Assembly (NCBI GenBank): GCA_035478595.1
Contig: DATIJL010000015.1
Span: 1-34,307 of the forward strand
Direction: 5' to 3'
DNA from: Candidatus Chromulinivoraceae bacterium
GTDB taxonomy: Bacteria; Patescibacteriota; Saccharimonadia; Saccharimonadales; Saccharimonadaceae
Length of the DNA stretch: 34,307 bases
A program made the position numbers and the translations under genes. Position 1 is the stretch's first letter, and each line of letters opens with the position of its first letter. Under the pieces are notes generated by a model. It was not told the origin of the DNA, ran no database searches, and worked only from the letters and a program-made list of their open reading frames with translations. This document shows, in pieces, positions 12,388 through 34,307 of the stretch.

Positions 12388-12651
12388 ATGAGCGACGAGA
12401 ACATGCAAGCCGTCCTGGGAGTCCTGGAGGACGCGTGCCTCGCGACCGAGAAGGGCAAGGCCCCGGGCAACGCCAAGCTGGTCTGGATGACGATCGCAGA
12501 GATCGCCACGGCCGGCGGCATGTCCGAGGCGGCAGCCGAGGACGGTGTGGGCACCGGCGTCAGGGAGGGTCTGGTCTCCAAGGGGACCGGCAACAACGAG
12601 GGCAAGTATGCCCTCAACGACCCCGACCTGAACCAGAAGTACACCGTGTAG
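12388..12651 (+). CDS. Small winged-helix-like orphan protein (GC-rich unit)
   Basis: 87 residues, GC-rich with G/C in most third positions, unlike the flanking genes. The fold suggestion is a winged helix: a helix MQAVLGVLEDACLATEK, a helix-turn-helix around MTIAEIATAGGMSEAAAEDG, then the wing GLVSKGTGNNEGKYALNDP. GGGAGAG lies about 10 bases before the ATG. It has its own consensus promoter and a perfect 18-bp hairpin 20 bases after the stop, so it is a complete single-gene unit. I find no known family; DNA binding is inferred from pattern. Confidence 0.7.
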   Translation: MSDENMQAVLGVLEDACLATEKGKAPGNAKLVWMTIAEIATAGGMSEAAAEDGVGTGVREGLVSKGTGNNEGKYALNDPDLNQKYTV

Positions 12652-31399: not shown

Positions 31400-31429
31400 T
31401 TGTGCTTGATGTTACGTACCTGATACAAT
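31400..31429 (+). promoter_or_regulatory. Promoter of the surface-protein gene
   Basis: TTGTGC (31400-31405), 18-base spacer, TACAAT (31424-31429). The start at ATG 31440 is only ~4 bases from the predicted start site, so the mRNA is almost leaderless. Confidence 0.6.
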
Positions 31430-31439
31430 GAGCTCAAGC

Positions 31440-32072
31440 ATGGCAAGATTACCTGTACCTAACGGTGATGACGGCAATTGGGGTACGCTACTCAATGAGT
31501 TTTTAGGAGTAGCGCATAACAGTGACGGGACTCTCACACCCTCAGCCGTTACTAATATCGGGACAGAATTACTTGCAAACAAGAACCAATCCGGCGGGTA
31601 TGCTGGTCTAGATGGTAGCGGTCGCGTTGCCGCCGCTCAGCTTCCCACTCCTACTAGCATAGCGGCGTATATAGGAGTTGAGGCGAGTGGCCCTACTATC
31701 TTGAATAAGACATTCACCCAAGTGGCTTTTACTGGTATTACCGCACAGCTGGATACTGCAAGTATCAGTTGGAATAGCGGCTCACCATCTATCGTGACTA
31801 TACTACAGACTGGCGTTTATTCGGTGACGGCAGGTGTTTATTGGAGAGACGCGGGACTAACCGGTCCGATCACTCTACAAATACTCTCCAGCTGCCAATT
31901 TAATTTCGCTGATGTTCGCCCAGCGATAGGGGATGGTGTTACAGAATCCCAACAGTTTCTTACTGCGACTATGTATCTACAGACGGGACAGGGGATTAAC
32001 CTGAACATCGAACAGTCTACCGGAACCACCCTAACGCCCTATATTACTATGCTAGTAACGCGCTGCACCTAA
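31440..32072 (+). CDS. Surface/tail-fibre-like protein with Saccharibacteria-type N-terminus
   Basis: 210 residues from the second ATG (MARLPVP..); the first ATG (31428) lies inside the -10. The N-terminus PNGDDGNWGTLLNEFLG then AHNSDGTLTP and LDGSGRVAAAQLP is the phage-tail-fibre/collar-like motif that recurs in Saccharibacteria surface proteins. The C-terminal ~130 residues are beta-rich (TFTQVAFTGITAQLDTASI, GVYSVTAGVYWRDAG, QSTGTTLTPYITMLVTR) like a C1q/TNF jelly-roll. It probably forms trimers; no signal peptide is visible, so export may be through an unknown route. Confidence 0.75.
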   Translation: MARLPVPNGDDGNWGTLLNEFLGVAHNSDGTLTPSAVTNIGTELLANKNQSGGYAGLDGSGRVAAAQLPTPTSIAAYIGVEASGPTILNKTFTQVAFTGITAQLDTASISWNSGSPSIVTILQTGVYSVTAGVYWRDAGLTGPITLQILSSCQFNFADVRPAIGDGVTESQQFLTATMYLQTGQGINLNIEQSTGTTLTPYITMLVTRCT

Positions 32073-32493: not shown

Positions 32494-32523
32494 TTGTCTA
32501 AATAGGATTGACTAAGGTATAAT
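32494..32523 (+). promoter_or_regulatory. Promoter of the first Cys micro-protein gene
   Basis: TTGTCT (32494-32499), 18-base spacer, consensus TATAAT (32518-32523). Confidence 0.7.
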
Positions 32524-32566
32524 ATGGCAGTTCAGGTTTTATCCGTCATCGAGAATCGAGGATGAT

Positions 32567-32770
32567 ATGTCCGCAGGCCATGGTGGTAGATCTCACGGTG
32601 GGAAGGATGCTATCACCGGTCCACTTACACCGACGGGTGAGGGGATGTGCACGGTCGACAGCGGCCTTGTCTGCTGGGGACGGCGCGTAGATCGCGACGC
32701 CACTGCTGCCGACAAGAACTCGTGCTCCCCAAAGGGTTGCTCGAGAACTACGGCCGCGAGGGGGACATAG
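32567..32770 (+). CDS. Four-cysteine micro-protein, copy 1 (GC-rich unit)
   Basis: 67 residues with GAGGATGAT before the ATG. The N-terminus is Gly/His rich; the C-terminal half carries CTVDSGLVCWG, a D-A-T turn and NSCSPKGCSRT. The cysteine spacing is C-x7-C-x16-C-x4-C and recurs in the gene at 33025. Four conserved Cys suggest a zinc or disulfide-stabilised mini-domain; a modified peptide (RiPP-like) cannot be excluded. GC-rich single-gene unit with a consensus promoter and a long hairpin. Confidence 0.7.
   Translation: MSAGHGGRSHGGKDAITGPLTPTGEGMCTVDSGLVCWGRRVDRDATAADKNSCSPKGCSRTTAARGT
32717..32756 (+). repeat. 40-base near-identical repeat, copy 1
   Basis: Matches 33148-33187 at 38 of 40 positions. 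It covers the coding DNA for NSCSPKGCSRT and flanks; the nucleotide identity is much higher than over the rest of the two genes. Confidence 0.9.
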
Positions 32771-32818
32771 TAATAAGACAGCTGGCAAACAGTAGATACT
32801 GAGCTGTCCCTGATGTAG

Positions 32819-32879
32819 AGCCCAAGGGAGGAATCTCGTTGTCACTAATGATGTGATCTGAGATTCTTCCCCTTGGGCT
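32819..32879 (+). terminator. Long hairpin after first Cys micro-protein
   Basis: AGCCCAAGG (32819-32827) with CCTTGGGCT (32871-32879), continued by GGAATCTC with GAGATTC; large loop, then TATATTTATG. Confidence 0.7.
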
Positions 32880-32925
32880 TATATTTATGTTATTCGAAGA
32901 TTATGCGAGATTACGTTGAGTCCAT

Positions 32926-32954
32926 TTGTCATAAACTTTATTTTATTATATATT
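32926..32954 (+). promoter_or_regulatory. Promoter of the second Cys micro-protein gene
   Basis: TTGTCA (32926-32931), 17-base spacer, TATATT (32949-32954). Confidence 0.7.
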
Positions 32955-33024
32955 CAATAAGATCTTCTGAATTCATTCAGGGTCACTAGCAAGGCAGCAT
33001 TTACCTCGACGAAAGGGATGCAGT

Positions 33025-33207
33025 ATGTCCACTTCAGAAAGCCCGGAACCTACTGGTCTACCGCTATCTGATGGGAAGTGTACAGTCAAGCTTGGTAAAG
33101 TTTGTTGGGGAAATCCAGCGAACACCGATGCGACGCTCTCCAACCACAACTCGTGCTCTCCAAAGGGTTGCTCGAGAACTGCGGCCGAACGGGAGAGGGC
33201 TAGCTAA
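33025..33207 (+). CDS. Four-cysteine micro-protein, copy 2 (GC-rich unit)
   Basis: 60 residues, AAAGGGATG as ribosome-binding site. Paralogue of the gene at 32567: CTVKLGKVCWGNPANTDAT followed by NSCSPKGCSRTAAE; all four Cys and their spacing are kept while the N-termini differ. GC-rich unit with its own promoter and a 15-bp perfect terminator hairpin. Function unknown, as for copy 1. Confidence 0.7.
   Translation: MSTSESPEPTGLPLSDGKCTVKLGKVCWGNPANTDATLSNHNSCSPKGCSRTAAERERAS
33148..33187 (+). repeat. 40-base near-identical repeat, copy 2
   Basis: Partner of 32717-32756 (38/40 identical); both lie at the same place in paralogous genes. Confidence 0.9.
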
Positions 33208-33268: not shown

Positions 33269-33303
33269 AGTGGGAGACTGTCAGTATATGACAGTCTCCC
33301 ACT
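33269..33303 (+). terminator. Perfect hairpin of the second Cys micro-protein unit
   Basis: AGTGGGAGACTGTCA and TGACAGTCTCCCACT, 15-bp perfect stem around GTATA. Confidence 0.75.
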
Positions 33304-33434: not shown

Positions 33435-33472
33435 CCGTGATCAGCCTGGCTAATATACCAGGCTGATCACGG
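33435..33472 (-). terminator. Perfect hairpin of the 33492 unit
   Basis: CCGTGATCAGCCTGG and CCAGGCTGATCACGG, 15-bp perfect stem with an 8-base loop, 20 bases beyond the stop of the minus-strand gene. Confidence 0.75.
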
Positions 33473-33491: not shown

Positions 33492-33758
33492 TCAGCTGTA
33501 GACCTCGACCGAGGTGCGGTCGGTGCCAATACGGCGAATCCTCTCCTGCTTCTGAAGACCGTTGATCGTCTCTCCGATGGCGTTGTGGGACATAGGTACA
33601 CGGAGGAGGGCGGCGACTCGTGCCTCGATCGTACGGTAGTCTCCTTTGGTGGCGACCATCGTGCCACCAGCTCGCTGGGCGATGCTCTGGAGAATGCCGA
33701 AGATCATCTCGTCCGCCGCCTTCTGGTTCATACCGGCTCTTCCGATCCCTCTGACCAC
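33492..33758 (-). CDS. Small winged-helix-like orphan protein (GC-rich unit)
   Basis: 88 residues from GTG (33756-33758) with GAGAGGAAG upstream. A winged helix is plausible: MIFGILQSIAQRAGGT, then YRTIEARVAALLRVPMSHNA, IGETINGLQKQERIRRIG, and a short wing DRTSVEVYS. It is GC-rich and has its own hairpin. The two winged-helix-like units of this window (this one and 12388) share size and layout but no obvious sequence identity. Confidence 0.65.
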   Translation of the reverse strand: MVRGIGRAGMNQKAADEMIFGILQSIAQRAGGTMVATKGDYRTIEARVAALLRVPMSHNAIGETINGLQKQERIRRIGTDRTSVEVYS

Positions 33759-34131: not shown

Positions 34132-34247
34132 CGAGACGTAAGTTCAGTGAGTGAGGCTGACTGTAAACAACCTGAGTCTCAAAACCCTCCAAATGCAAAT
34201 ACGCATCTGCTATCCTTGAAGTGACAAAACAAAAAAGGAGAAGCAAC

Positions 34248-34307
34248 ATGCGTATTTTACGTTCTCATCATATCAAGAATTTAATTGAGGTGGTAGATAC
34301 CTTCTTG
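34248..34307 (+). CDS. Start of a gene cut by the window edge
   Basis: AAAAAGGAGAAGC lies just before ATG 34248, a very good ribosome-binding site. Only 20 codons are visible (RILRSHHIKN.. then IEVVDTFL). Too short to assign. Confidence 0.6.
   Translation, partial: MRILRSHHIKNLIEVVDTFL

Follow-up and report, generated by a model that had tools for sequence, protein, structure and literature searches.

A tandem pair of candidate orphan microprotein genes with four cysteines in a Saccharimonadaceae genome

Do two very small open reading frames that lie in tandem, each with four cysteines, encode proteins, and if so, how old is the pair and what might its products do? We have analyzed this question for ORF1 and ORF2 of a Candidatus Chromulinivoraceae bacterium. 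Both lie within the final 1.8 kb of the window, that is, the whole stretch of DNA that was analyzed (the entire contig G000:C15, 34307 bases). Tiny orphan genes are hard to separate from noise. Here two copies within one genome supply their own evidence of selection without an outside homologue.

Layout of the pair and search for relatives

The positions of the features discussed here are collected in Table 1. Both ORFs of the tandem four-cysteine pair are present as first described; they are separated by 254 bases on the plus strand and both begin with ATG. Their GC contents are 0.63 (ORF1) and 0.54 (ORF2), and their predicted pI values 8.9 and 7.7. Each ORF has its own promoter-like site and downstream hairpin, for which the best explanation is that ORF1 and ORF2 are predicted to be separate transcription units. 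The promoter-like sites are suggestive only, since their count in the region is not above that in shuffled DNA. The strong hairpin beyond ORF1 is a probable terminator, with a tail that is T-rich and holds no pure T run.

Table 1. Features in and around the four-cysteine gene pair (positions in the window)
Feature	Positions	Strand	Description
Promoter-like site, ORF1	32494..32523	+	TTGTCT, 18 nt, TATAAT; 10/12 in consensus scan
Shine-Dalgarno-like GAGGA, ORF1	32558..32562	+	4 nt 5' of start codon; from sequence
ORF1	32567..32770	+	67 aa, four-cysteine microprotein
Tail copy 1	32717..32756	+	encodes NSCSPKGCSRT; contains 27-nt imperfect hairpin
Strong hairpin 3' of ORF1	32813..32882	+	-41.6 kcal/mol, z -8.8
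Promoter-like site, ORF2	32926..32954	+	TTGTCA, 17 nt, TATATT; 10/12 in consensus scan
Shine-Dalgarno-like AAAGGGA, ORF2	33012..33018	+	5' of start codon; from sequence
ORF2	33025..33207	+	60 aa, four-cysteine microprotein, ORF1 paralogue
Tail copy 2	33148..33187	+	38/40 identical to copy 1
Perfect hairpin 3' of ORF2	33269..33303	+	15 bp
Perfect hairpin 3' of 88-aa gene	33435..33472	-	
88-aa gene	33492..33758	-	convergent with ORF2; GC 0.60, GC3 0.74

Two neighbours of the pair can be described briefly. A 214-aa protein encoded at 31428-32072 carries an N-terminal MARLPVPNGDDGNWGTLLNEFL motif, shared with a protein encoded at G000:C4 14591-16309, and weakly matches a minor tail family of phages in PHROGs (E 7.5e-5). 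It has the look of a fibre or surface-display protein. Beyond ORF2, the contig breaks off inside a repeat (34167-34307). Sequences matching it at 99-100% lie terminally or close to the terminus on C4 and C12, and one more lies internally on C12 (24571-24708). The repeat, some 1 kb past ORF2, probably represents an insertion-sequence end.

The two proteins are 50% identical overall and have in common the gapless cysteine pattern C-x7-C-W-G-x14-C-x4-C (equivalent to C-x7-C-x16-C-x4-C), within an alignment that spans C28-T61 of ORF1. Four Cys, one Trp and three Gly are invariant at fixed spacing; in the numbering of ORF1 the invariant residues are C28, C36, C53, C58, W37-G38, D44-A45-T46 and N51-T61. 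The conserved module of ~34 residues reads G-x-C-T-V-x2-G-x-V-C-W-G-x5-D-A-T-x4-N-S-C-S-P-K-G-C-S-R-T. A beta-hairpin at CTVxxGxVCWG was weakly predicted in two AlphaFold runs, at low confidence (pLDDT 50 and 54). The N-termini do differ, as had been reported: they are hydrophilic in both proteins (MSAGHGGRSHGG and MSTSESPEPTG) and give no useful alignment, and neither does the DNA flanking the two copies. An example of a tryptic peptide predicted from the pair is LGKVCWGNPANTDATLSNHNSCSPK.

No match to ORF1 or ORF2 was found in Pfam, NCBIfam, PHROGs, PADLOC or PDB, and no relative in phage and plasmid records (tblastn) or in IMG/VR viral contigs (three protein queries and one DNA pattern). 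A small-ORF search with the cysteine pattern, which the initial annotation had proposed, returned no relative from 84,980 GTDB species genomes scanned with peptide patterns, a method that detects close relatives only. Profile searches likewise found none in 295 and then 394 genomes of the family, 393 of the order and 393 of the class; these samples overlap, and among the genomes searched the genus is represented by the present species alone. Weak profile matches in relatives (E 0.005-0.07) were rejected because they mostly contained stops, none had the cysteine pattern, and their number equals the chance expectation over ~300-400 genomes. The degenerate-DNA pattern matched 29 stretches of viral contigs; of the stretches read, the majority lay off frame, and not one was pair-like. 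Within the collections searched (genomes, phages, plasmids and viral contigs) ORF1 and ORF2 thus appear to be orphans. The initial annotation had held that a lack of any homologue, together with a lack of transcription, would count against the pair; the homologues are indeed lacking in these collections, and the comparison of the two paralogues itself shows constraint. With constraint and no homologue found outside the species, the pair fits the description of a taxonomically restricted microprotein, an assignment limited by sampling and by the use of short-pattern scans.

Selection on the cysteine module, age of the duplication and the near-identical tail

Over C28-T46 only 30 of 57 bases are identical, yet 11 of 19 residues are kept. 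Third positions account for 15 of the 27 differences (hypergeometric P 8e-4), and silent sites are saturated, with pS 0.95 vs pN 0.32 in a test based on two sequences only and 19-34 codons. These values bear out the earlier suggestion of selection on the cysteine region. Residue retention in the other frames is 2-4, with the exception of the mirror antisense frame, which keeps 10 of 18 residues with the same substitution bias and is open across the module. Since this frame nearly equals the sense frame in retention, the strand cannot be told from the substitution pattern alone: purifying selection acts on the reading frame of the plus strand or on its mirror. We favour the plus strand: there, each ORF starts with ATG and comes with a Shine-Dalgarno-like sequence, a promoter-like site and a downstream hairpin, while frames on the minus strand have GTG or TTG starts only.

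It is improbable that the plus strand has no protein function at all, the ORFs being decaying or spurious or the genes lying on the opposite strand. This would accord with the lack of relatives in the collections searched, with the open mirror frame and with weak codon usage, which scores -0.05 and -0.13 bits/codon for the two ORFs vs a mean of 0.22 in the long genes of the genome, and is below it in every frame. However, ATG, Shine-Dalgarno-like sequence and downstream hairpin are intact in both plus-strand copies, antisense frames lack an ATG start, and silent saturation combined with residue conservation argues for coding. ORF1 and ORF2 look like a real, species-restricted orphan gene pair.

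The initial annotation had taken the near-identity of the tails as a sign of recent duplication or gene conversion. Recent duplication is contradicted by the saturation of silent sites (pS 0.95) and by the unalignable flanks; the pair was probably duplicated long ago, with the protein under selection. The near-identity of the tail DNA is itself confirmed (38/40 bases). A repeat finder extends the match to 57 nt at 84%, and local BLAST within the genome reports 48 nt at 89.6% (E 6e-11), far beyond chance; no further copy was found in the genome of 1,135,732 bases. Identical codons are used at 10 of 11 conserved residues of the tail, where the codon usage of the genome predicts 3.7 (P 6e-5) and that of GC-rich genes 4.4 (P 2e-4); just upstream the codon is identical at 4 of 12 (Fisher P 0.009 vs the tail). 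Two explanations fit: homogenisation of the tail through gene conversion over a short tract, or constraint on its nucleotides. The proposal of gene conversion thus survives for the tail only, where nucleotide constraint would also explain the pattern.

An imperfect 27-nt hairpin in the tail, picked after the sequence had been seen, forms in copy 1 (-11.3 kcal/mol, z -3.4) as well as in copy 2 (-8.3 kcal/mol, z -2.0). The sole difference inside it turns C-G into U-G and so keeps the pairing; the surrounding 66-nt folds are unremarkable (z -1.6 and +0.5). As a nucleic-acid element this hairpin is a lead. A stronger version, in which the tail would be mainly an RNA hairpin or a DNA/RNA-protein site that is incidentally read as protein, seems unlikely to us. 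The nearly frozen silent sites of the tail, next to saturated ones upstream, speak for such an element, as does a hairpin whose one difference still pairs, but the hairpin was chosen post hoc, the longer folds are not unusual, short gene conversion accounts for the same pattern, and the protein-like constraint upstream would be left unexplained. Least credible of all is that the pair represents a new Cys4 fold founding a family of one epibiont lineage, with the same 40 bases constrained both as protein and as RNA or DNA.

Candidate functions of the four-cysteine module

The best explanation as a whole, which we hold tentatively, is that ORF1 and ORF2 encode cytosolic Cys4 metal-binding microproteins with a variable N-terminal tail. 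No signal peptide, transmembrane or hydrophobic stretch is found in either protein (maximal 15-residue hydropathy 0.54 and 0.21), as assessed from sequence and hydropathy rather than by a dedicated signal-peptide predictor. It is this lack of an export signal, together with four Cys in fixed register and the Trp-Gly motif, that suggests a small metal site in the cytosol. The four Cys would bind one metal ion, with zinc as first choice and iron-sulfur as second, and the site would tie together the small beta-hairpin (CTVxxGxVCWG) and the CSPKGC loop at the C-terminus. In that case the module may serve as a small binding or adaptor domain whose partner is set by the variable, disordered N-terminal tail, so that the different tails of ORF1 and ORF2 would select different partners. 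An old duplication of the pair would have been followed by homogenisation of the tail DNA, through a short conversion tract or nucleic-acid constraint. Metal binding, the cytosolic site and the adaptor role are all inferred from the sequence.

The pair resembles the small bacterial zinc-ribbon and treble-clef microproteins in size (~60-70 aa), in its four invariant Cys and slightly basic character, and also in its weakly predicted beta-hairpin and the lack of an export signal. Zinc ribbons and zinc knuckles have four Cys/His ligands, usually in two C-x2-C knuckles. Unlike these, ORF1 and ORF2 space their four Cys as C-x7-C-x16-C-x4-C, without C-x2-C knuckles, and have no match to a Pfam profile or a structure. 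WhiB-like proteins (PF02467; four Cys, iron-sulfur) are also small, with four Cys and a Trp-Gly near Cys, but the order of their Cys and their G-V-W-G-G turn differ, and neither ORF matches PF02467, which places the pair outside WhiB. An origin from RCC1-like proteins was considered as well, as CxVxxGxVCWG resembles part of an RCC1 repeat; it was rejected, as neither Pfam nor PDB returned a match and the genome lacks repeat proteins of the CWG type. Overall, the pair is of an ordinary kind, that of orphan Cys microproteins, and not a new type of system.

The genome does encode a WhiB-like protein elsewhere (G000:C1 11373-11636; PF02467, E 1.5e-28), and of 151 genomes sampled from the family, 35, the present one included, have a PF02467 match that passes the cut-off. 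The WhiB family is regarded as actinobacterial, and the C1 gene suggests a transfer from actinobacterial hosts or their phages.

Secreted toxins, immunity factors and modified peptides had been offered as alternatives in the initial annotation, and none gathers positive evidence, in the form of a signal peptide, a hydrophobic stretch or a family match. We consider it rather unlikely that the products are exported, disulfide-bonded peptides of a bacteriocin-like, effector or toxin/immunity type acting on the bacterial host of the epibiont. Small, Cys-rich proteins in two diverged copies restricted to one species would suit such a role, and the pair adjoins the putative tail/fibre-like surface protein at 31428-32072. 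Secreted bacteriocins and disulfide peptides carry a signal peptide or a double-glycine leader; ORF1 and ORF2 have neither, nor a hydrophobic segment, nor a match in family or defence libraries, and no adjoining secretion or immunity gene was identified. Leaderless proteins could in principle be moved by the type IV secretion system of Patescibacteria, which one account describes as homologous to conjugation machinery (PMC12102498).

Still less probable, indeed very much so, is that the ORFs are RiPP precursors with the conserved C-terminal segment as core. That segment is rich in Cys, Ser and Thr, and the genome encodes a GC-rich radical SAM/SPASM protein (G000:C11 38057-39169). In RiPP precursors, however, the leader is usually conserved and the core variable; the pair shows the opposite, with a variable N-terminus and a fixed C-terminus. 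The initial annotation had pointed to nearby modification enzymes outside the window as a check. The window takes in the entire contig, which leaves no flanking sequence of this contig to inspect, and no such enzyme was identified on it among the annotated genes and the subset of ORFs scanned; the SPASM protein lies on another contig, and the part of its neighbourhood that was read holds no small precursor peptide related to the pair.

Small GC-rich genes elsewhere in the genome

The four-cysteine pair also draws attention to a wider set of orphan microgenes rich in GC, some linked to hairpins and some paralogous, which makes a tractable set for asking about origin and role in a host-dependent bacterium. 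The genome (GC 46%, GC3 of long ORFs 0.44), which by its gene content resembles that of a Saccharibacteria-type Patescibacterium, has 169 GC-rich islands, amounting to 76.9 kb, outside ordinary genes. Many of these hold short isolated ORFs of no recognised function, few of which were searched for relatives. Genes with GC3 >= 0.6 are over-represented before perfect hairpins (16/61 vs 79/1209, P 3e-6), counts that are indicative as the gene set was built mechanically from the longest non-overlapping ORFs. High expression was rejected as the cause of the GC-richness, genes of the EF-Tu type having a GC3 of ~0.42, and integron cassettes (ORF-plus-hairpin units) found no support, as the hairpins are perfect and singly scattered.

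ORF1, ORF2 and the convergent 88-aa gene fit a class of small GC-rich genes that lie dispersed over the genome. The 88-aa product, possibly a winged-helix protein, has no Pfam match, weak matches only in NCBIfam and PHROGs, and no relative in 150 family genomes or in viral contigs. A second tandem pair of tiny, Cys-containing ORFs, 49% identical to each other, lies on the minus strand of C10 (110111-110320 and 110339-110488), with the motif YKxCxRxxCGxIWS...EPxGC and no relative in 150 family genomes. Like ORF1 and ORF2 it is tandem, tiny and GC-rich, has a W after a Cys pair and ends in [SE]-P-x-G-C; it differs in having three Cys, spaced C-x4-C-x(15-17)-C, and a profile comparison of the two pairs was not significant (E 0.11, probability 0.5%). 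Dispersed paralogous microgenes occur at C12 15374-15583 and C14 3056-3259, and a further paralogous group comprises C3 2680-2922, C17 24462-24710 and C14 17121-17348. Given these other groups, the tandem Cys pair is not unique in the genome but exemplifies a pattern.

Several further observations concern the same kind of gene. The hairpins downstream of the C12 15374-15583 and C14 3056-3259 genes have the arm sequence CCTCCTGAAGTCG in common, which would fit copying of each gene together with its hairpin. Within the window, an 87-aa GC-rich gene (12388-12651, GC3 0.92) is followed 20 bases past its stop by a perfect 17-bp hairpin, and has sub-threshold matches only, to helix-turn-helix families. 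The radical SAM/SPASM gene on C11 and a gene for a SMODS-associated NUDIX protein (Sa_NUDIX, G000:C14 8658-9251) both belong to the GC-rich accessory class.
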